DNA of 64,000 bases, from assembly GCF_005862235.1 (NCBI RefSeq), contig NZ_VCEK01000003.1, forward strand, positions 186,199 through 250,198, read 5' to 3'. The number at the start of each line of letters is the position of its first letter. The first letter of the stretch is position 1. Of the stretch, positions 3,948-15,773 are shown one piece after another. The position numbers were made by a program, and so were the translations under genes. The notes below the pieces were generated by a model. The model was not told where the DNA came from, searched no databases, and saw only the letters and a program-made list of their open reading frames with translations. The stretch is from Saccharomonospora piscinae. GTDB taxonomy: Bacteria; Actinomycetota; Actinomycetes; Mycobacteriales; Pseudonocardiaceae.

Positions 3948-4020
3948 GGGGCTGTAGCGCAGTTGGTAGCGCGTCTCGTTCGCATCGAGAAGGTCAGGGG
4001 TTCGATTCCCCTCAGCTCCA
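3948..4020 (+). tRNA. tRNA-Ala (anticodon CGC)
   Basis: A 73-nt cloverleaf: acceptor GGGGCTG pairs with CAGCTCC, the D-arm contains GCGCAGTTGGTAGCGC, the anticodon stem TCTCG/CGAGA encloses loop TTCGCAT with anticodon CGC, and the T-arm is AGGGGTTCGATTCCCCT. Discriminator A at 4020; no encoded CCA. It marks the left boundary of the foreign defence island. I found no second copy of its 3' end further right, so integrase-type insertion into this tRNA is not demonstrated. Confidence 0.96.
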
Positions 4021-4199
4021 CTCTAGGGTCGTTATTGGAAGCCTTGCCCGCGTGAACGAATTCAGGGGGAGGGCAACGGATGAATCGGCCCGAAGGGCGT
4101 GGGCGGTCGTGGTCAGGGATCTGGTCTTCCTTGACGTAGGAAATTTCAGCGCGGCCTGGATGAGGCGGGCGTTGTCCGTGAGGCCGGTGTCGGCAGTGT

Positions 4200-4749: not shown

Positions 4750-4895
4750 AGGTCCGCTAGGGTGTGAACAGTTTGATCGCGGATGTACAGGGCTGAACTA
4801 GCAGGCTGGGCACCGAGTGTGTGTCGGTGACCGGAGCAGTGCTCGAGCTGAGTACGGTCACCGACCAGTTGAGGTGCGTGACAGAAGGGAAAAGC

Positions 4896-6131
4896 GTGAG
4901 CAAGGGGCACCCGCTGCGCGCCAAGCGGCGACCGAAGTTCGAGGAGGGTGCCGACGCCTTGCGGGTCGTTGACCTCTTTGCCGGATGTGGTGGCTTAACC
5001 CTTGGGGTTGCTCAAGCTGCAAACAAGCATGGCATCGCACTTGAGGTCGCTCTCGCTGTGGACTTTGGTGAAGCGCCGACTTGGGTGTTCAAGGCCAACT
5101 TCCCGACCGCGAATGTGCGGCACGGATCGGTTGAAGATTACTTCGACGGAGCGCTCGGTGCAAATATAACGCGTATTGAGCACAAGACAAATGTCGAGGT
5201 TGGTCGGGTCGACCTCCTTATCGGAGGTCCCCCATGTCAGGGTCACAGCAACCTAAACAATCACACCCGGCGAGACGACCCGAAAAACCATCTATATCTT
5301 AGGATGGCGCGGGCTGCCGAGGTTCTCCAGCCTCGGGCAATTCTAATTGAAAACGTGCCGGCAGTGGTGTATGATAAACAGGACGTGGTATCGAACGCTA
5401 TTGAGCACCTTAAGGGTGCTGGCTATGTGGTCGCCACTGATCAAATCGATCTTCTCAAGCTCGGCGTTGCGCAAACTCGCAAGCGTCACATACTTCTCGC
5501 TATCCGTGGTGACGTAGCCCCGCGTTGCGATTCCGTCGACGCGCTGCTCCAGCTGCAGAGCCACAACGGACGTCCGCGCGATCTCAGGTGGGCCATTGGC
5601 GACCTGGTATCAGTAGAGCCGAATACTACCTTTGATGCAGCCCCCAAATTCAGTGCTGAAAATATCAGGAGAATGAACTGGCTCATTGAGAACGACGAGT
5701 ACGATCTTCCCAATGAGCTGAGGCCTAAGTGTCATCAAGGTCAGCATACTTACCATTCAATGTACGGCCGCCTTCGTTGGGACCAACCATCGCAGACGAT
5801 TACCAGTGGATTCGTCACTATGGGTCGCGGACGATTTGTGCATCCAGAGTTACCGCGAACGCTCACGCAGCACGAAGCGGCTCGAATTCAAGGTTTCCCT
5901 GATTATTTTACTTTCGAGAAGAAGATGAAGCGCGAGCTTTTCCGAAATGAGGCGCAGCTCATCATCGGCAATGCCGTACCTCCGCAACTCACCTTTGCTC
6001 TCACGGCCAAGCTTTTCAACGTTGGCGTGCTGGATGCGACGAGGCAAGAGGACGCGGACGAAGTGTCGGAGATCCTGGTTCCCGAACCAGCAGCGGATGT
6101 CGCAGAGCCTTTGGCGGAGGCAGTCGCGTGA
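4896..6131 (+). CDS. DNA (cytosine-5-)-methyltransferase (Dcm/M.HpaII type)
   Basis: Methylates cytosine C5 in DNA and is probably the self-marking arm of the adjacent restriction module. All key m5C-MTase motifs are visible: motif I VVDLFAGCGGLTLG, motif IV GGPPCQGHSN (catalytic Cys114 from this start), motif VI IENVP, motif VIII GVAQTRKRHILLA, motif IX segment SQTITSGF, and motif X IGNAVPPQL. Target recognition lies between VIII and IX and cannot be decoded. The longest ORF begins at GTG 4821, but the GTG at 4896 has an AGAAGGGA ribosome site 5 bases upstream and keeps the whole domain (411 aa). A/T-ending codons are frequent (for example ATATAACG and TATATCTT), unlike flanking housekeeping genes, a sign of transfer. 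A gene-free 229-base gap separates it from the next gene. Confidence 0.92.
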   Translation: MSKGHPLRAKRRPKFEEGADALRVVDLFAGCGGLTLGVAQAANKHGIALEVALAVDFGEAPTWVFKANFPTANVRHGSVEDYFDGALGANITRIEHKTNVEVGRVDLLIGGPPCQGHSNLNNHTRRDDPKNHLYLRMARAAEVLQPRAILIENVPAVVYDKQDVVSNAIEHLKGAGYVVATDQIDLLKLGVAQTRKRHILLAIRGDVAPRCDSVDALLQLQSHNGRPRDLRWAIGDLVSVEPNTTFDAAPKFSAENIRRMNWLIENDEYDLPNELRPKCHQGQHTYHSMYGRLRWDQPSQTITSGFVTMGRGRFVHPELPRTLTQHEAARIQGFPDYFTFEKKMKRELFRNEAQLIIGNAVPPQLTFALTAKLFNVGVLDATRQEDADEVSEILVPEPAADVAEPLAEAVA

Positions 6132-6360
6132 GGCGGCCTGCTTGGCCAACACACGTACAGTGTTGCTTGCGCGCTGAACCGGTAGGTCTCGAGTCGATCG
6201 GCCTAGAGGGGCCAGGGGTGCAACGACAGGGCTAGCACTGGTGGGTCCGATCCGATCCGCCTGAGAACCTTGGGAAACCCCGCCCGCTAATTTGAGTCAC
6301 TTCTCCAGGACGAGCAGGTACGATCGGGTCCGCTAACGACCGGCCGGCGAGGGGTACTGC

Positions 6361-8175
6361 ATGGAGTTAGTGGTCAACAAACACGTTCGGCAGATGCGTC
6401 GTTATCGTCCATTCGACGCAGACTCCGGCAGCATGATCTACGAGCGTCAGACCGACCGGGTCAACAGGCTCTATCCCGTTGTGACACTGGAGTATCTGCT
6501 TGAGGTCATCGAGCGGAGCGAGACGAAGACAATCGTGCTGACAGGTGACGCGGGGCACGGAAAGACGAGCCTGTGCGCGAGCGTGCTTGGACGGCTCCGC
6601 ACGGACGAGCCCGGTGATGCCAGCCGCGCGGAGATCCAGCGTGCGGTCTTCGCTGACCTTGAAGCATATGGGGACGCCAGTCGGCCCGTAGGTAGCACAG
6701 GCAGCGGTCGACCGCTCTACGTGCTGAAGGATCTCAGCGAAATCAACATCGATGGCGGAGCACAGCGACTCCGTGCGCTTCTTTCGCCTCCTGGACACGG
6801 CGTCGCGATCATCTGCGCCAACGAAGGACAGTTACGCAAGTGCGTGGCGAGTGATACCACCGGCCAGGCTCATGTGATTGTCCAGACCCTTAGCGAAGGG
6901 ATCAAGCGAGGACGCGTGACGTCTCCGGACGGGTCAGTCATCGTCATCAACCTCAACTATCAGACGGTGGCGTCCGAGGTTGGAGGAAAAGGACTCGTGC
7001 CGTGGGCACTCGGCCGGTGGACGACTGCGCAGGGGAATCGCTGGAAGGTATGCGAGAACTGCCTGGCTCAACACGTATGCCCTATCCTCGCGAACCAGCG
7101 AGAGCTGAGCGACGTGAGCGCGGGTCCGTCGCGACGTGAGGCGGTCAAGGACCTATTCGCTGCGGCAGAGCGGACCGGTGCCGTTATTACGACACGGCAA
7201 GCGTTATCGGTTCTCAGTCAAATGATTACTGGTGGGCTTGACTGTGAGGATGTTCACCGTCGCTACAGTCGAGCTCACAACGACCAGTCTTGGCAATACG
7301 TTCACATGTATCACCAAGCCTTGTTCGGTGATCGGCTCAATCAGGAGCAGCGCAAACTTGTGCCAACGTTCAGGCCTTTGCGACGTCTTGACCCAGGGCG
7401 GGTCTCGCGTCGAGAAGTCGACGATCATGTCGACCCTGCTCTAATCTTGACGAAGTTCACTCCCGAAGATCCGAGTAGCGACGAGGAGCGGGTTCGCACC
7501 GCGAGAGACGCACAGAAGCAGGCAGAGAGGCTCCGGGATCTGTACGTCTTCTTGCGGCGCGCTGACTTCTTCAACTCCACAAGTACAGATCGCTTCGCGC
7601 GCATGGGGCTGCAGTCCGGTGACGACTTCGTTGCAGTCCCGATGGCGGCGAAGGATAACTCGGACACCAATGTGAGAGACCGCTTCCTCAAGGGGCTTGA
7701 GGCGGTGCAGGGTGTGCATCGCGCAGGAAGCAATCCGGACTTTGTTGTGCTCGATCCGGCGTTCTTCACGCACCGGATGCGGGCTGCGGTTATCTCGCGG
7801 CGCGTGTCTAGCAAAGGTGCCATCGTCATCGATCAGGTCGGTCAGTGGCGAGCTGAGAGCGATACGGAACCGGAGATGCAGCATGCTGTTGAGTGGTTGA
7901 ACCGAGAGATTTACATCCGGATCCCCGAGGTCGCCGGTGATGGTAGGACGGTCTCGGTTGAGGCTGACCTCATGAGGTTTGAGCTCCTGACTCGCTGGGC
8001 CGAGGGGCTTCGTAGCGAGGTCCAACACGAAGCCGAGATCCGGGGACTGACTGGCGCCTTAGCCGAGTTAGCACACGCGCCCGGTCAGGAGGACGAGATC
8101 CAGGTCCTTGTGGTTGATGTCCTACGCAAGCTGATGATCGACGTCGGTGACAAAATTCGACTGGTGCGTGGCTGA
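6361..8175 (+). CDS. P-loop ATPase, DptF-like component of a restriction module
   Basis: A 604-aa protein with a Walker A motif near the N-terminus (GDAGHGKTS, residues 62-70), a hydrophobic Walker-B-like strand (LYVLKDLSEINI, about 119-130), a following strand AIICANEGQLRK with a sensor-type Asn, and a Cys cluster C231-x2-C234-x5-C240 (VCENCLAQHVCP). This layout, the length and the order ATPase / about 480 aa / about 1670-aa FtsK-like recall DptF of Dnd phosphorothioate restriction systems (DptF-DptG-DptH). I cannot run a profile search, so the family name is inference. RBS GAGGGG precedes the ATG. The stop overlaps the next start (TGATG), showing tight coupling. Probably cytoplasmic; senses DNA status or powers the complex. 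Confidence 0.65.
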   Translation: MELVVNKHVRQMRRYRPFDADSGSMIYERQTDRVNRLYPVVTLEYLLEVIERSETKTIVLTGDAGHGKTSLCASVLGRLRTDEPGDASRAEIQRAVFADLEAYGDASRPVGSTGSGRPLYVLKDLSEINIDGGAQRLRALLSPPGHGVAIICANEGQLRKCVASDTTGQAHVIVQTLSEGIKRGRVTSPDGSVIVINLNYQTVASEVGGKGLVPWALGRWTTAQGNRWKVCENCLAQHVCPILANQRELSDVSAGPSRREAVKDLFAAAERTGAVITTRQALSVLSQMITGGLDCEDVHRRYSRAHNDQSWQYVHMYHQALFGDRLNQEQRKLVPTFRPLRRLDPGRVSRREVDDHVDPALILTKFTPEDPSSDEERVRTARDAQKQAERLRDLYVFLRRADFFNSTSTDRFARMGLQSGDDFVAVPMAAKDNSDTNVRDRFLKGLEAVQGVHRAGSNPDFVVLDPAFFTHRMRAAVISRRVSSKGAIVIDQVGQWRAESDTEPEMQHAVEWLNREIYIRIPEVAGDGRTVSVEADLMRFELLTRWAEGLRSEVQHEAEIRGLTGALAELAHAPGQEDEIQVLVVDVLRKLMIDVGDKIRLVRG

Positions 8176-9626
8176 TGGCAGAAAGGTCAAGAGCGAAAGC
8201 CGAAGTTGTTCTGCAGCTCTTCGGTGTGAACCTTGAGCATCAAGGGCGGGGGTTCTATGTGTCACTGGAAATGCTGGCTATCGCCAGAGGCGCCTACGTT
8301 ATCGACGAAGACCTTCTGTTGGCGAACGACAGCAGCACCATCAGGTACAAGCGGATTTCACACGACCTTGCGCGGCGGATCGCGACGCGGGCGACGATCG
8401 TCGAGGGTCGGGATGAGCTCGCAAAGGCGGTCGAACTCGAGACGCCTGAAGCCTTCGACACGCTGCGCGCGCTGTTCTCGTCGCTAGTCGTGGAGGTCCC
8501 TGGCCGGAAAAAGGCGCCAAGCTGGTTTGGTGCACACCTCTACCCGTTTGTCGGCGAACTGATCCACTACGACGCGACCGAACGTGTGGTACCGAAATCA
8601 CATGCACGGTCAAAGGACGGCAGTAAGCGTTCCAGGCAAGCCAAGACCGTTGACTCCGGCGCCAAGGCACCGCAGATTGAGCGTTACCTCTTTCGCGACG
8701 GGGGCGGCTGGGCGTACAAGGTACTACGGACTGATTCTAACGATGACCGGCGCATCGGCACGCGCCAGGGGCTGGCTGAGCTCGTGCGCGATAGCGGTAC
8801 GCCCTTGGGGAACCTGGCCAAGTCGTTGAGCGCCCATGACTTCGACTACGACGAGGAGCCATACGAGGACATCTTCGAAGGCAAGATCGAGATTTTCGAC
8901 GAATCGGACCCATCCTGCTCGAACGGCAGTACATGGCCCGAACTGATGCGCGACGGGGTCCACAACATTGTCACTCGGAGCGCCGCTCCGCGGGCCAAGC
9001 GGATCGAGAGCTTGATGCACTGGGTTCCCTACTGCCTGGCACGTCATCAACTGTGCCTTGCACGGCGTAAACTCAACGTCGACACCGAAGCGGTCTTGCT
9101 TGATTTTGGCAACGAAACGAGCCCTCTGCGTACCGCGTCCCGAAAGCATCTCGACGAGTTCCGCGCGGACATCGTCGGGGCACTCAATGTACAGGCTAAG
9201 GAGATGGTGTCGGCGGCTGGATCCGATACTGAGATCCAGCGGTACGAGAAGTTCGCTAGAGAGACCGGGGCTGCGGTGACTTCACCGCGTGCATTCTTCA
9301 CCGAGACTCTGGCTGCTGTTGGAGCTCTCAACTCAACCACTGGTCGTCGTCACTTCACGCTGAAGCCGCCGATGCTCGAAGCGATCGTCTCGGCGACGAT
9401 CGCGGGTGACCGTGAAATGGAGTTCGGCGAGTTCTGCAAGGCGATCTACCAAAAGTACGGCCTGGTCGTTCACAGCGGTACTATGGGGCGCGACGCTCTA
9501 GCATACGACGTTCCCCCTTCTGTCCTTGACCGGAACCTGAACCATTTCCGTGATCGGCTGGCCGCGGTCGGCCTGCTCACCCAGTATTCGGATGCGACAA
9601 GCATGGTGCGAGGAGAGCCTCGGTGA
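8175..9626 (+). CDS. Unrecognised 483-aa protein, positional DptG-like subunit
   Basis: I recognise no domain or catalytic motif. It is a mixed, mostly soluble protein with no signal peptide or membrane segment. A central charged, Lys/Arg/Ser-rich stretch (about 140-165, VPKSHARSKDGSKRSRQ) may be a flexible or DNA-contacting segment, followed by an acidic patch (about 218-245, DFDYDEEPYEDIFEG). It overlaps the upstream ATPase by TGATG and the downstream FtsK-like gene by GTGA, so the three products are almost certainly made in fixed ratio and may form one complex. Position and size match DptG in dptFGH operons; this is inference only. Confidence 0.55.
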   Translation: MAERSRAKAEVVLQLFGVNLEHQGRGFYVSLEMLAIARGAYVIDEDLLLANDSSTIRYKRISHDLARRIATRATIVEGRDELAKAVELETPEAFDTLRALFSSLVVEVPGRKKAPSWFGAHLYPFVGELIHYDATERVVPKSHARSKDGSKRSRQAKTVDSGAKAPQIERYLFRDGGGWAYKVLRTDSNDDRRIGTRQGLAELVRDSGTPLGNLAKSLSAHDFDYDEEPYEDIFEGKIEIFDESDPSCSNGSTWPELMRDGVHNIVTRSAAPRAKRIESLMHWVPYCLARHQLCLARRKLNVDTEAVLLDFGNETSPLRTASRKHLDEFRADIVGALNVQAKEMVSAAGSDTEIQRYEKFARETGAAVTSPRAFFTETLAAVGALNSTTGRRHFTLKPPMLEAIVSATIAGDREMEFGEFCKAIYQKYGLVVHSGTMGRDALAYDVPPSVLDRNLNHFRDRLAAVGLLTQYSDATSMVRGEPR

Positions 9627-12600
9627 CAGACAACGGGATAAGGGCGCTGGGACGGTTTGTGGCGGATGAAGCGATCCGCACGATCACCAAACCCGGAGAT
9701 GGCCATCCGGCCTTACTCGTAGCGGGATTCGACGTGAAAACGATCGGGCACGCGCTCCGCCGCATTGCGGACCGAAACACGGAACCCGACTTTGCCGAGA
9801 TCATCGTAAAGGTCGGTACGTCGAAGCCGATCGACGGTGTTCCGGCTAAGTATCTGCTGAAGCCTGACGAGCAGTTGACTAAATGGCGTAACCGGCAAGG
9901 CGCGGCCCTGCTCCTCTTCGCCTACGGTGATTCGCCTGACGCGCAGGGTCTCAGCGCGATGAAGGCCCTCAACGACGCGACGCTCTTGAGCGGCACTAAC
10001 GACGCCGACTGTGACGGGTTCGAGCGGTTCCTGGACGAGGCCTGGCGTACGCTCGTAGCTGACCGGGACGTGCCTGCCCTCATCGTCCGTCAACTCCCTC
10101 GGATCTGGCAAGCGATCACGGCGGAAGCACCTAAGACCTTGAGGAGGTGGGCCGACTTCCTGGTGAACATCGTAGAAGCTGTCGCATCAGAGCCGGTTTA
10201 CACCGAGGACGTAATCTACCCAGCGATCTGCAAAGCACTTCCGGTCCTTGACCTGTTCCCAGACAACGCCCTATTCAGTCGTGAAGCCGCACTAGAGAAC
10301 AGGGTCAGGATTAATGCCCGCGTAAGCACGCTGCGTCAGCAGCCTCGGGGGGCTGAAATTTCTGAGGACGACCTGATTGATCGGATCGGCGCAGCAGAGT
10401 TCAGCGATGACGCTCTGGCGCAGATCAGCGCATCAGTTCAGGAAGCCAAGACTCGCATGCGCGAGTTAGTCTTGAACCGAGATGCGCGGACGCCCGAAGC
10501 CCGCTCCCAGAAACTCTGCGAGCACGACCTGGCGCTCTGGCTTGAGGTTTTTGAGCACAGGTCGAAGGCCTGCGGCCTCGGGCAACAGGTTCGTGAGGAT
10601 CTTGACCGGAACCATCCCAGCCGTGTTGATGAGTTCAACGCGATGCTCATTGAGGACGCCTTGGATCAGGGCGACCAGGATGCTGCCCAAAGGCTCCTTG
10701 ACGAGGCTCCGCCGCTCGCCGGGGACGACCCTCTGGCAGATCTCCTGCAGAAGAAGTTGCGCCGTAAGCTTGAGAAACTCGCTTATCCCGACTCTCGTTT
10801 CGTCCAAGACCCACTCCGGGCACTCTTGCGCGAGCTGACGTATTTCCATGACGAGAATGATGGCGTCATTTCGATGCGTATTGAGGGTGCAACAGAGGCT
10901 GGTTCATGGAGCCGGTGGCTGTTCGCCTTCCTATACGCACGCACGCTTCGTGACATCCAGGACTCAACTGGATTGCGGCTCTCCCTTAATGTCCATGATA
11001 ACTTGTTGAATTGTCAGACTCCTAGCGCCCCGGAGGAGTCTGACCACGAGTTCGACCCGGCGATCGAATGGGCACCGCTGAGGTTCCTCATCGAGATGGA
11101 CGGCGTGCTCCAGCGGAGGTTCCGTTGGGACCCACTCGCGATCCCGGGACAGATTGCGCTGGCGGCCATTGTACAGGGCAAACGCACAGCTCCTGGTTAT
11201 CAAAGCGGTGTCACTCTCGACAGGTTCGTTGATGAGTTCATCGACCCGCAGCAATGGTACGACAATACAGGCGTACCCACGACAGAGTTCGCACGCCGTC
11301 TGCACAATCTGAGGGAAGGCCACTTCGGCGTCCTTGCTGCAGGCTTGGATGCAGTCCAGATTGATGAGTACGTTGAGGAATGGAATGAGGTGATCCGAGA
11401 AGCTCGCGTCGAGCTGGTCCCCGAGAACGCCCCTAATGCAGACCTGGAGGCCGTCGTACTCACCGACATGGTCCTGCTCGCAAACAGCCGAATCCTTATG
11501 CTCGCAACGCACCCACTGAAGTTGCGTTGGCTGGCGCAGAACCTAGCAGGTGTCGCGCAGCTGATCCGGACCGCGCTCAACGAGGACGGTGGCCTGCGCT
11601 TAAACGGCGAAAACGAGGACCTGTTTTTCGACGCGGTCGACCGTGTCTCGCCTCACGGGAATCCAGCCGTGGTCGTCGGGCCAAAGAACACAGTTGCGAT
11701 ACCGATGCGTGAATCAGCCGGGCACGAGGAATACGCTCCGGTCCTGCACGGTGGAAACGAGTCTAAGGAGTGGCTCTCCAGCGTTGATGAGACCGCCATC
11801 GACGAGATGGTCCGAGTTATCACGGACTATTTGACGACCTACCCGCAGAAACTGGATGGCCTCCGGGTTTTGCTCTTGGACCGCAATGGTGACCCCGTGC
11901 TACCCGTTCGGGTCGCAAAGCAGCTTCGGACGAGAAAACCTCGCGTCAAGGTGGACCTGGTCGTCCTCGCGCCGCAAGCAACCCACCATGAGATCATCCA
12001 AGGATTCGATCTGCAGTTTACCGACCCTGAGCTGTCGGATGACAGATTTCTACCAGATGTACAGCTCATGCTGCAGAATTGGGATCCGGACCAGCCGGCG
12101 CAGCTTGACCATCTAATCGATACCATCGACATCGCCTTGGCGCCTGCGCTCTTCGGCACCCACGCTCGCATCACACCTAGTACTAAGAAAGAGTCCTTAT
12201 CGGGTGCTTTCGACCCGTGGAAGCATTCCGCATCTCACAACCTGACTCAATCGAATGAAAACGTCGCCCGTGAGCTTCTCCCGCACACTGCCGACGAGAT
12301 GCTTGAGTCTTGGTCCACCTTGTGCGTCCGGTACGAGCGCAGGTCGCCAGTGTCATCGGAAAGCGTTGACGGAATCGACTTCTTCGTCATGCGCGTGGAG
12401 TTTGATCAGCATCAGGAACTTTTCGCCACCTTGCATTGTGTCGCGCATTGGGTCGTCACTCTTGACAGCTTCGTCGGACGTGAGCAAATCGATGCTTTAC
12501 CTAACAGGCCGGACGTAATCCTGGTTAAGCCCAGTGTCGGTAAGAATGAGTCCTATACTCTCGTAGTCAGTTCCCAGACTGGCAGGAAATTCGTCGTCCA

Positions 12601-14632
12601 GGCGTTACGCAGGCGTTTGATGCGGGTTGGCATCGTCAATGATCAAGATTCAGAACCCACCGCCGCCCGGATTTATGAAGTCGGCAGGAACGTCGTGCCT
12701 GGAGCTGTGTTGCGTTCTCTGGGCATCGGCACCACAGTCAACGAGATCGTCGGGCTCGTTGCCACCCGGTTCGTGCTTGAGCAATACTTCCCCATCTCTT
12801 CCGCTGAGACGAGCCTGGATACCTGGATAAGCTTCGACGAACACCATCGTTGGTTCGGACGCGGGCGTAAGACACGAGCCGACCTCGGACGGTTCGTGCT
12901 GACGGTACAGGCCGACGAGAGCGTCCGCCTCGACGTTTTCGTTGCAGAGTCAAAGTTCCGTCAGACGCTTGACGTGGGCTCTGCCGAAGAACAACTAGAC
13001 CGGACCACTGATTTGTGCGCGGACGCATTCAGGTCGGGCGAAGAGGCATTTCACGACCGCCCGTTCTGGCTTGACGAGCTGGCCGCGGCGATCGCCCAAA
13101 CTGGAGGAGACGGTCTCAAATCGGCAGATCTCCCTCCGCGAATAATTCACGGTGATGGCGACGCTGCCAGAGTCAAGGAGAAGATTCTTGAGGCGTTGCG
13201 ATCAGGCAGGGTTGAGCTCGGCTCGGTGATCGGGGTTGCTGTCGCGATCGCTGCTACCGACCACGAACCCTCGCCCGCACCAACCCGCCTTGGCAGGCAC
13301 ACTCTGCTCGTGCTCAAGAAGGATAGGCTCCAGTCACTTATTGGGGCATTGCGAGCGGAGCATGCTCCGGCGACCGCCGCTCTCATCGTTGAGGACAGTG
13401 GATTTGACCGATCGGGGGCTGAGAGCCAGGGTGTGAGTGCGCCAGCCTGCGCCGCATTCTCGCAGTCGGCTCCTATTGCGGAATTGGTTGGGGAGTGCAA
13501 CGAAGCTGGTACGAAGGCTGCCGTTGATACTCCAGTCCCTGAGAGCCCGCAACAAGGCGTGGGCGGTGGGTCGGCCCGCGCTGTTGGACTCGGAGACGAC
13601 GAGCTCGTCCGCCGCTACAACCGGGTCGCTGACGTCTTCGCCCGCCACAAGGTCGGCGTGACCGCTCCTCAGAACGGCAGGTGGCAGGAGGGGCCTGGCT
13701 TTTACATACTTCGGTTTGTCCCGTCTCCGGGGGTGTCTGTCGACAAGTTAATCAGCCGCCGCGACGAGATCAAACTCGCACTGGAACTTGAGGCAAAATT
13801 CAGCATCCGGGCTCAGGTCGACCGCGGTGCAGTGTTGTTCGAGGTGCCAAAGCCTGCTGCGGAGAAGTACGGTGTAATCGCGTCAGACTTGTGGCAGCAG
13901 TGTCCAGTTGAGGGCGATCGGCTAATTGCACCAATCGGCGAAGATATCCGAGGGAACGCGGTCGTCGTTGACCTCTCGTCGGCAGATTCACCCCACCTGC
14001 TAGTGGCGGGCACGACGGGCTCCGGAAAGTCCGTCGCCTTGGAGACAATTCTAAAGGGGCTAAGCCGCTACCACTCGTCCGAACTTCGGCTACGGCTTGT
14101 CGACCCAAAGGGGACCGAGCTCGTCGATTTCGAAGGGGATCCGCACCTTGAGGGAGAGATCGGAATGGACGCGGCTGACGCTATCGAAATCCTGGACAAT
14201 GCGGTCGAGGAGATGACAGAGCGTTATAAGGCGATGAAAGAGTTACGCGTGCGTAAGCTAGTCGACTATAACACCAAGGTTGACTCATGCGACCGCAAGC
14301 CGTGGGTAGTGATCGTCCTTGATGAGTACGCGGACCTGACGAGCGATCCGGACGAGAAGAAGCGCATCGAAGTGTTACTCAGGCGGCTTACCCAGAAGGC
14401 CAGGGCCGCTGGAATCCACGTGATTACCGCAACGCAGCGTCCGAGCGCCGACGTCATCTCTCCTACAATTCGGTCAAATTTCCCTGCCCAGCTGGCGTTG
14501 CGTGTCAAAACGTCCACCGACAGTCGTATCGTCCTTGACGAGACAGGAGCGGAGGCGCTGGCTGGACAAGGCGACGCCCTGCTCCATACCGCGCGAGGTT
14601 CCGTCAGAGTGCAGGTCGCCTATGACGGCTGA
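9623..14632 (+). CDS. Giant FtsK/HerA-type DNA translocase, DptH-like
   Basis: A 1669-aa protein. Only the C-terminal ~210 residues are recognisable: an FtsK/SpoIIIE motor with Walker A GTTGSGKS (1463-1470), Walker B VVIVLDEYADL (Asp1567/Glu1568), ITATQRPSADVISPTIRSN, and the ALAGQGDALL closing motif. The preceding ~1400 residues are unrecognised and soluble, with a presumed linker around 1275-1330. DptH of Dnd restriction systems is likewise a very large protein with a HerA/FtsK-like ATPase, hence the name. The expected role is DNA translocation or unwinding on unmodified DNA coupled to cleavage; no nuclease motif was seen by eye. GTG start with RBS GAGGAGAG, 4-base overlap with the preceding gene. 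No transmembrane segments, unlike cell-division FtsK. Confidence 0.72.
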   Translation: MTDNGIRALGRFVADEAIRTITKPGDGHPALLVAGFDVKTIGHALRRIADRNTEPDFAEIIVKVGTSKPIDGVPAKYLLKPDEQLTKWRNRQGAALLLFAYGDSPDAQGLSAMKALNDATLLSGTNDADCDGFERFLDEAWRTLVADRDVPALIVRQLPRIWQAITAEAPKTLRRWADFLVNIVEAVASEPVYTEDVIYPAICKALPVLDLFPDNALFSREAALENRVRINARVSTLRQQPRGAEISEDDLIDRIGAAEFSDDALAQISASVQEAKTRMRELVLNRDARTPEARSQKLCEHDLALWLEVFEHRSKACGLGQQVREDLDRNHPSRVDEFNAMLIEDALDQGDQDAAQRLLDEAPPLAGDDPLADLLQKKLRRKLEKLAYPDSRFVQDPLRALLRELTYFHDENDGVISMRIEGATEAGSWSRWLFAFLYARTLRDIQDSTGLRLSLNVHDNLLNCQTPSAPEESDHEFDPAIEWAPLRFLIEMDGVLQRRFRWDPLAIPGQIALAAIVQGKRTAPGYQSGVTLDRFVDEFIDPQQWYDNTGVPTTEFARRLHNLREGHFGVLAAGLDAVQIDEYVEEWNEVIREARVELVPENAPNADLEAVVLTDMVLLANSRILMLATHPLKLRWLAQNLAGVAQLIRTALNEDGGLRLNGENEDLFFDAVDRVSPHGNPAVVVGPKNTVAIPMRESAGHEEYAPVLHGGNESKEWLSSVDETAIDEMVRVITDYLTTYPQKLDGLRVLLLDRNGDPVLPVRVAKQLRTRKPRVKVDLVVLAPQATHHEIIQGFDLQFTDPELSDDRFLPDVQLMLQNWDPDQPAQLDHLIDTIDIALAPALFGTHARITPSTKKESLSGAFDPWKHSASHNLTQSNENVARELLPHTADEMLESWSTLCVRYERRSPVSSESVDGIDFFVMRVEFDQHQELFATLHCVAHWVVTLDSFVGREQIDALPNRPDVILVKPSVGKNESYTLVVSSQTGRKFVVQALRRRLMRVGIVNDQDSEPTAARIYEVGRNVVPGAVLRSLGIGTTVNEIVGLVATRFVLEQYFPISSAETSLDTWISFDEHHRWFGRGRKTRADLGRFVLTVQADESVRLDVFVAESKFRQTLDVGSAEEQLDRTTDLCADAFRSGEEAFHDRPFWLDELAAAIAQTGGDGLKSADLPPRIIHGDGDAARVKEKILEALRSGRVELGSVIGVAVAIAATDHEPSPAPTRLGRHTLLVLKKDRLQSLIGALRAEHAPATAALIVEDSGFDRSGAESQGVSAPACAAFSQSAPIAELVGECNEAGTKAAVDTPVPESPQQGVGGGSARAVGLGDDELVRRYNRVADVFARHKVGVTAPQNGRWQEGPGFYILRFVPSPGVSVDKLISRRDEIKLALELEAKFSIRAQVDRGAVLFEVPKPAAEKYGVIASDLWQQCPVEGDRLIAPIGEDIRGNAVVVDLSSADSPHLLVAGTTGSGKSVALETILKGLSRYHSSELRLRLVDPKGTELVDFEGDPHLEGEIGMDAADAIEILDNAVEEMTERYKAMKELRVRKLVDYNTKVDSCDRKPWVVIVLDEYADLTSDPDEKKRIEVLLRRLTQKARAAGIHVITATQRPSADVISPTIRSNFPAQLALRVKTSTDSRIVLDETGAEALAGQGDALLHTARGSVRVQVAYDG

Positions 14633-14752
14633 AACGTTTTTCTCCTCCTGTTCTTTCCACTTTCGTAGACGCGAGCACCGATGCCAGCTGAGGTGCCGGG
14701 GTGCAGCCGTGCAGCGCTTGCCTGCAGCTCGGCGAACCGTCCTGCTGCATCT

Positions 14753-15223
14753 TCAACCGTTTCCCGAGCCGGGGTGTGATGTTCGGTCCCGGTGGCTACC
14801 TGCGGATCGGCTCTTGACGCGGTGCCGCCACGCGGCCTCGACGCGGTCGGCTGCTGCGCCGGTCGCCTCGTGTTCCCACACGTGCAGCACGCGCCAGCCG
14901 AGCGCGGCGAGCTCGGCGTCCTTGGCGCGGTCACGGGCGGTGTTGCGATCAAATTTGGCTTGCCACCAGTCCCGGTTGTTGCGCGGCACTGTGCTGTGTT
15001 CGGGGCAGCGGTGCCAGAAGCAGCCGTCCACGAACACCGCGACCTTCGCCCTGGTGAACACGATGTCCGGACGGCCGGGCAGCCCGGGATGGTTCAGCCG
15101 GAACCGCAGACCTCGGCGGTGGAGTTCGCGCCGCAACGCGGCCTCAGGCTTGGTGTCCGAGCGCGGCTGGCGACGCAACCGTGCAGACGTCGCGGCATCC
15201 AGCGGCGTCGGCGAGCGGTCCAT
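14753..15223 (-). CDS. vsr: Very-short-patch mismatch repair endonuclease
   Basis: A 156-aa Vsr-family endonuclease that nicks 5' of T in T:G mismatches left by deamination of 5-methylcytosine. Visible family motifs are SDTKPEAALRRELHRRG, GLPGRPDIVF (Asp53) and the signature FVDGCFWHRCPEH (residues 64-76), then LGWRVLHVWEHE. I chose ATG 15223; the ORF is open further upstream (to 15478), but that part looks non-coding and overlaps the mobile-element remnant. It converges on the FtsK-like gene with 120 bases between. Vsr genes classically accompany m5C methyltransferases, so it is the repair partner of the methyltransferase at the other end of the island. Confidence 0.88.
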   Translation of the reverse strand: MDRSPTPLDAATSARLRRQPRSDTKPEAALRRELHRRGLRFRLNHPGLPGRPDIVFTRAKVAVFVDGCFWHRCPEHSTVPRNNRDWWQAKFDRNTARDRAKDAELAALGWRVLHVWEHEATGAAADRVEAAWRHRVKSRSAGSHRDRTSHPGSGNG

Positions 15224-15435: not shown

Positions 15436-15773
15436 TGAGTCTTTTCCACTTGGCGCAGCGCGATGCCCTGACCGCCACCGAGGTCCGTGTCGTCGCCGAC
15501 AGCGCTTACCACGGCGCGGGCGGGAACGTCGACCTCCCGCACCGCCGCCGAGCACGCGAGGACCATCGCGGCAACCGGTTTCGCCTGTCGACGAACCAGA
15601 AAGGTTGTCAACGCCGCCCACGCCCGACTACGCGGCCCGGCGAACGCGCCAAACGCCCAGCCCAAAAGCTGAAGATTCCTCCGCAAGATTCGCACCCCAC
15701 ACCACGCGCCCCTGCTGATCAACGCAGTACAGACCCTCATCCACGCAGGCTGAACACAAGTGGAAAAGACTCA
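15436..15773 (+). mobile_element. 338-bp internally deleted insertion sequence with intact ends
   Basis: The outer 17 bases are a perfect inverted pair: TGAGTCTTTTCCACTTG at 15436-15452 and its complement at 15757-15773. They are flanked by a 5-bp direct repeat ATGAG (15431-15435 and 15774-15778), which reads as a target-site duplication. The inside is a remnant of transposase coding sequence, so the element cannot move by itself. The family is probably IS5-like, judged from the transposase fragment. Confidence 0.75.
15451..15753 (+). pseudogene. C-terminal transposase fragment (IS5-like DDE)
   Basis: Conceptual translation across frames gives LTATEVRVVADSAYHGAGG (DDE-domain strand with Asp and Tyr-His), then in the next frame RKVVNAAHARLRGPANAPN, an in-frame TGA where Trp is expected, and FLRKIRTPHHAPLLINAVQT with a terminal stop. 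The order fits the last third of an IS5-group DDE transposase with at least one frameshift and one nonsense change. The N-terminal two thirds are missing. Confidence 0.65.

Follow-up and report, generated by a model that had tools for sequence, protein, structure and literature searches.

How the restriction complexes DndFGH and SspFGH tell a cell's own DNA from incoming DNA is an open question, and a locus of Saccharomonospora piscinae poses it in another form. In the locus, which occupies positions 4896 to 15223 of a 64,000-nucleotide stretch of contig NZ_VCEK01000003.1 (positions 186,199 to 250,198 of the forward strand; the whole stretch is called the window, and its own numbering is used throughout), a gene for a C5-cytosine DNA methyltransferase (C5-MTase) is followed by three overlapping genes for an SspFGH-type module, here called F, G and H, and by a gene for a Vsr mismatch endonuclease. 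What would such a module read as self, with a base methyltransferase encoded upstream of it? We think it fairly likely that the C5-MTase is the modification arm, that the SspFGH-type complex attacks unmarked DNA and that Vsr repairs deaminated 5-methylcytosine (m5C). With a natural FGH module wired to an ordinary m5C methyltransferase, the question could be addressed by methylome sequencing and simple genetics, and no sulfur chemistry would be needed.

In the proposed mechanism, a defence resembling restriction-modification, the C5-MTase would mark the cell's own DNA with m5C, and the SspFGH-type complex would attack incoming DNA without the mark, so that restriction would be gated by methylation. 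F would act as a P-loop sensor or regulator, an NTP-dependent switch, and G would probably be the DNA-binding part; H would translocate unprotected DNA by means of its FtsK motor and nick or cut it with a PD-(D/E)XK-like nuclease. Vsr would repair the T:G mismatches produced by deamination of m5C. The locus would represent an SspFGH restriction chassis whose phosphorothioation arm has been swapped for an m5C arm.

The methyltransferase and the FGH proteins

The intact C5-MTase (4896..6131, plus strand; 411 aa; type A in the classification used below) matches PF00145 with an E-value of 2.8e-46, and its motifs FAGCGG, PPCQ, ENV and QTRKR are all present. F (6361..8175), G (8175..9626) and H (9623..14632), all on the plus strand, encode proteins of 604, 483 and 1669 aa; F begins after a gap of 229 bp, the F and G genes overlap by 1 base and the G and H genes by 4, and the F-G-H operon order is that of known FGH modules. 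The Vsr gene (14753..15223, minus strand; 156 aa) is convergent with H, and its product scores over the curated cut-off of TIGR00632 (E 3.3e-38). An earlier note on this DNA had described the same five genes, giving no strand for Vsr, with the methyltransferase starting at GTG 4896; a start at 4821 is possible, but the GTG has the better ribosome site (AGAAGGGA). It had also pointed to a P-loop and a Cys cluster in F and to a C-terminal FtsK motor in H, and all three are found. 

The note's comparison of the three genes with DptFGH stands as regards the kind of restriction module, to which DptFGH and SspFGH both belong, but not as regards the nearest relative. The PADLOC models SspF (E 8.5e-34), SspG (E 7.2e-11, over the C-terminal 97 aa) and SspH (E 4e-93) match, whereas no Dpt or Dnd model for F, G or H does so at E<=1; only Ssp, mad and HerA models match the three proteins. 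As, in addition, the authors of SspFGH report that it lacks sequence homology with DndFGH (PMC8092258), SspFGH is the nearer name. Alignment comparisons with plasmid homologues agree with the profile searches, with hhalign values of 99.8% (E 1e-28) for F against SspF, 97.9% (E 6.4e-13) for G against SspG and 99.5% for residues 480-1320 of H, from which the FtsK domain is excluded, against SspH.

In F, the Walker A motif GDAGHGKT (residues 62-69; 6544..6567, plus strand) has G62, A64, G65, G67, K68 and T69 invariant in a three-sequence alignment, as are C231, C234 and C240 of the cluster CENCLAQHVCP (residues 231-241; 7051..7083, plus strand), which is a probable zinc site. In H, the domains follow the order expected for an SspFGH/DndFGH module: a Rossmann methyltransferase-like domain (residues 697-985; 11711..12577, plus strand), recognized by fold comparison of the model and predicted to be inactive; the PD-(D/E)XK-like nuclease (residues 1039-1249; 12737..13369, plus strand), with the conserved motif D1087, E1109-x-K1111; and an FtsK alpha-like region, whose match to PF17854 (E 0.019) falls below the cut-off, with the FtsK motor (PF01580 E 4.8e-36; together residues 1329-1669; 13607..14629, plus strand). 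This end of H has 40% identity to the genome's own FtsK. Across 27 H proteins the residues D1087, E1109 and K1111 do not vary, and in an alignment of 20 H proteins D1087 is invariant and the other two are conserved in at least 90%. The nuclease is seen only as this motif and as predicted secondary structure, in a region with pLDDT block means of 59-92 that the fold comparison barely tested. The model of the whole of H is weak (pLDDT 56.6, pTM 0.50), with methyltransferases among other folds in the top Foldseek rows. Sequence searches against solved structures matched H only to FtsK/EssC/EccC-type motors and similar ATPases; no convincing match emerged for F, for G or for the central part of H.

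Linkage of the methyltransferase and Vsr with FGH

H was rejected as a survey query, as 99 of 100 related genomes match it, in almost every case through the FtsK part at its C-terminus, and F was used instead. When 84,980 species, each represented by a single genome, were scanned with an F alignment, 109 stretches matched, 26 of which encode an F relative. Without L068 (a partial F at a contig end) and L058 (the additional copy of a genome already counted), the scan yielded 24 genomes, 23 with a window-type locus and one, L069, with a locus of a distant type. L038 and L061 belong to one genome. The window brings the former to 24, and searches of the order added three distant-type loci (L039, L114 and L115), for a total of 28 genomes. 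Loci with an F fusion of 1356-1411 aa (L040-L043, L116 and L117) were not counted; by Pfam, L040 among them belongs to a locus like the methylation-associated defence system (MADS), the others being judged only by frame length and match.

F, G and H stand in order in all 28 genomes, and in 26 of them (22 of the 24 window-type and all four distant-type genomes) F is preceded by a C5-MTase at a distance of no more than about 1.5 kb. The linkage supposed by the earlier note, with the methyltransferase standing where a modification arm would be, is therefore consistent across genomes. Of the two outcomes that the note had named as refuting its idea, proteins unrelated to DptF/G/H and a methyltransferase without consistent linkage, neither was obtained. 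By chance, a C5-MTase within 3 kb of either end would be expected in 0.06 of the 24 window-type genomes, a generous figure because domain pieces and the linked methyltransferase itself were counted too. Vsr was found in 16 window-type and all four distant-type genomes (20/28) by blastp of open reading frames (ORFs) of at least 100 aa within 10 kb and by tblastn, which suggests that carrier cells contain real m5C. The recurrence of the five-gene set in other genera indicates that it is no chance match. Other clusters shared by at least three loci (ORFs of at least 100 aa) proved from their coordinates to be either shadow ORFs or chromosomal neighbours common to streptomycetes. F was matched in 6 of 397 sampled genomes of the order and in 2 of 396 of the phylum, the window genome and MADS-like fusions included each time, so the system is rare. 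In the Streptomyces carminius assembly, two FGH-methyltransferase loci with identical proteins lie on different contigs (L057 and L058), through either recent duplication or an assembly artefact.

Sulfur-mark genes in carrier genomes

The self mark of the Ssp and Dnd systems is a phosphorothioate (PT). SspFGH damages DNA without PT and is toxic in its absence (PMC8092258), and dptFGH without the dptBCDE modification genes causes an SOS response (PMC12707154). Only 10-15% of PT sites are reported to be modified (PMC10853773, PMC8092258). The earlier note had seen no dnd modification genes here, and the genome of the window contains neither DndC nor SspD. In 26 of the 28 carriers (the genomes of L114 and L115 were left out of the DndC, SspD and PF00145 searches), DndC exceeded the cut-off in one, that of L048, and gave a weak match below it in one other (G822, the genome of L057), and SspD was found in none, with a model to which three plasmid SspDs score 4e-84 to 9e-132. 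The genome of L048 encodes dndBCDE and PbeA on another contig (L072:523-12833), so PT gating is possible for its FGH. On plasmids, where 7 of 16 matching loci were examined, the FGH order stands beside a PAPS-reductase-type gene and SspBC-like neighbours in six, from which the three SspDs scored above were taken, and in a MADS locus (mad2, mad3, mad7 and mad8 models) in the seventh.

Exchange of methyltransferases and constancy of FGH

Four methyltransferase lineages occur upstream of F: type A in 17 genomes (the window included), type B in 4, type C in 4 and type D in one (L062). Type C is that of the distant-type loci, two of the four being assigned by identity only. Type B is also the second methyltransferase of L045, where type A and type B C5-MTases lie side by side upstream of F (L045:6786-9620), as if caught in the middle of the replacement of one by the other. 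On a tree of window-type FGH, obtained by a quick method and having some weak forks and a long window branch, the distribution of type B implies a minimum of two changes, either a pair of gains or one gain with one loss, and that of type D implies one; the changes always take place upstream of F.

Several observations weigh against the proposed mechanism. In eight locus pairs, the identity of F, G and H is 65-92% where the loci differ in methyltransferase type (A, B, D or none), 79-96% within type A and 64-81% in the single B/B pair. Stretches of low identity are limited to differences in gene starts and to a linker of H (residues ~1231-1320) that is low in all eight pairs, within type A too. 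The recognition domains of different methyltransferase types share only 15-28%. If FGH read the site of its methyltransferase, a changed patch would be expected in FGH, and there is no sign that it was re-matched to a new site, which speaks against strict sequence-matched gating. In addition, the carriers are related by descent, and the 26 linked cases are not independent events. The Nocardia loci L046 and L048 have neither methyltransferase nor Vsr nearby, and the sole C5-MTase of each genome lies on another contig. No Vsr was found in eight of the 28 genomes (in L050 the contig ends 0.2 kb after H). A search of 394 genomes for type A-like methyltransferases, with 11.6-19 kb around each match examined, gave four genomes with a strong match; three of them have the methyltransferase with Vsr and without FGH, and the fourth is a known FGH carrier. 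Finally, the fold of G is unconfirmed (model pLDDT 68, no Foldseek match at E<=0.001); DndG is reported to fold as three winged helices (PMC10853773).

The constancy of FGH could have any of three causes: the methyltransferase types share a target, FGH reads something more general, or the methyltransferase is not the self mark. Concerning the first, the recognition domains of types A and B resemble each other in a CH...YGR(L/M) stretch, and the two types may share a target.

The second corresponds to an explanation that we regard as quite improbable, in which FGH reads general methylation, or a state of DNA altered by m5C, and any C5-MTase, linked or not, serves as a license instead of a site-matched code. 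It would account for an FGH that stays constant against several methyltransferase lineages and against unlinked ones, and every one of the 26 carriers searched encodes one or more C5-MTases. But such enzymes are common (10 of 14 control genomes hold one too), so their presence is weak evidence, and a target shared by types A and B would explain part of the constancy without any general reading.

The third cause would apply if FGH were a standalone machine against invaders that needs no self mark, and the methyltransferase and Vsr a separate cassette in the same island. We consider this unlikely. DndFGH has been argued to be standalone, without an inbuilt modification module (Rakesh et al. 2024, PMC10853773), and the indifference of FGH to methyltransferase type, the two Nocardia loci and the methyltransferase-Vsr pairs without FGH all fit such a separation. 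It does not readily explain, by contrast, why linkage at about 1.5 kb or less has been kept through the exchanges in 26 of 28 genomes, or why the newcomer is each time again a C5-MTase in the same place. If the C5-MTase is indeed the modification arm, the exchange of methyltransferases within this m5C branch amounts to an experiment made by nature, from which one could learn what FGH reads.

With respect to the two Nocardia loci, a methyltransferase hidden next to F was considered and rejected, as the genes there encode a helicase-nuclease in L046 and HTH and phosphotransferase-family proteins in L048. The former is a 1357-aa helicase with a REase_MTES_1575 domain, which occupies the usual place of the methyltransferase beside FGH in Nocardia araoensis (L046:5499-9572).

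The role of Vsr

Instead of repairing DNA, Vsr might serve as an additional restriction nuclease, or as an addiction element by which cells that lose the methyltransferase are punished. In Caulobacter, a Vsr-like protein has been reported to trigger the SOS response upon loss of a solitary cytosine methyltransferase (PMC12907096), which gives the idea a precedent. However, the Vsr of the window exceeds the curated cut-off of the repair family, and eight genomes yielded no Vsr; we hold a function of this kind to be very improbable, and repair of deaminated m5C is retained as its putative task. One of the type A-like methyltransferase-Vsr pairs mentioned above (L087:776-4020) is accompanied by a DndB-family protein (PF14072, E 7.9e-10), with no FGH on its 11.6-kb contig.

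Comparison with known systems

The closest known system is SspABCD-SspFGH of Vibrio anguillarum FF-93 (Wang et al. 2021, PMC8092258), which shares with the locus the profile homology of F, G and H, their order, the Walker A motif and the FtsK-like end of H. It differs in that its self mark is PT made by SspBCD, whereas here a C5-MTase is present, SspD is missing and Vsr is added. DndABCDE-DndFGH (Dpt) is similar in gene order and in the series of H domains, namely a dead methyltransferase, a restriction endonuclease and a HerA/FtsK motor (PMC10853773); nevertheless, its models are unmatched here, and DndC is not over the cut-off in 25 of 26 carriers.

MADS combines base methylation with FGH relatives (the mad7 and mad8 models match weakly), so the pairing of FGH with a base methyltransferase has a precedent. 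By contrast with the PF00145 C5 enzyme of the window, its methyltransferase is an N6-adenine one (mad2; L040, L080), and MADS-like loci encode a NERD-kinase-F fusion of about 1370 aa, while F is here unfused, with 604 aa and no kinase match at E<=1 (Pfam). For instance, an actinobacterial MADS-like locus (L040:1290-9023) encodes an N6-methyltransferase and a 1369-aa fusion of this kind. In the CxC ABC-ATPase-DndE systems (PMC10853773), a cytosine methylase is also described as replacing phosphorothioation, but it joins the DndDE modification core and not, as here, the FGH restriction module. Type II restriction-modification systems with Vsr share the C5-MTase and Vsr; the proposed nuclease of the window, however, is a three-protein translocating complex and not a single restriction endonuclease.

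FGH, C5-MTases with Vsr, and FGH relatives coupled to a base methyltransferase (in MADS) are already known separately. A search of the literature by title and start of abstract brought up no recognizable pairing of FGH with an m5C methyltransferase. What appears to be new is the conserved C5-MTase/FGH/Vsr locus, with the reservation that published MADS-like variants might include it. The presence of FGH beside an m5C methyltransferase in soil bacteria suggests a cutting machine that can be paired with different self marks, and, if the modification-arm reading is true, a single nuclease-translocase complex has come to work naturally with DNA marks of three kinds. A bolder version, which we find rather doubtful, would have a universal FGH chassis accept marks without chemical relation to one another, backbone sulfur (Ssp), N6-methyladenine (MADS) and m5C, the last being read without a site match while methyltransferases are freely swapped and FGH stays as it is.

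Druantia and DISARM were also considered, as their methyltransferase models match, and were rejected because their partners (DruE; DrmA/B) are lacking among the PADLOC matches of F, G, H and Vsr, which were those checked. The genome of the window has a second, unlinked C5-MTase (L074:1222-2745), whose best match is the DISARM DrmMII model.

Island borders and neighbouring elements

A tRNA-Ala gene (CGC; 3948..4021, plus strand; ARAGORN) forms the left border of the island with its 3′ end, as the match of same-genus DNA to the window stops at 4021/4022 in all five regions compared, taken from 11 relatives searched. Over the approximately 20 kb past the tRNA-Ala, none of these regions showed any more similarity to the window. 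Between 5 and 15 kb, GC content is 0.54-0.62, down from about 0.70. Just outside Vsr, a short element with perfect 17-bp inverted ends (15436-15773), whose 95-aa ORF has no Pfam match, is probably an insertion-sequence remnant.

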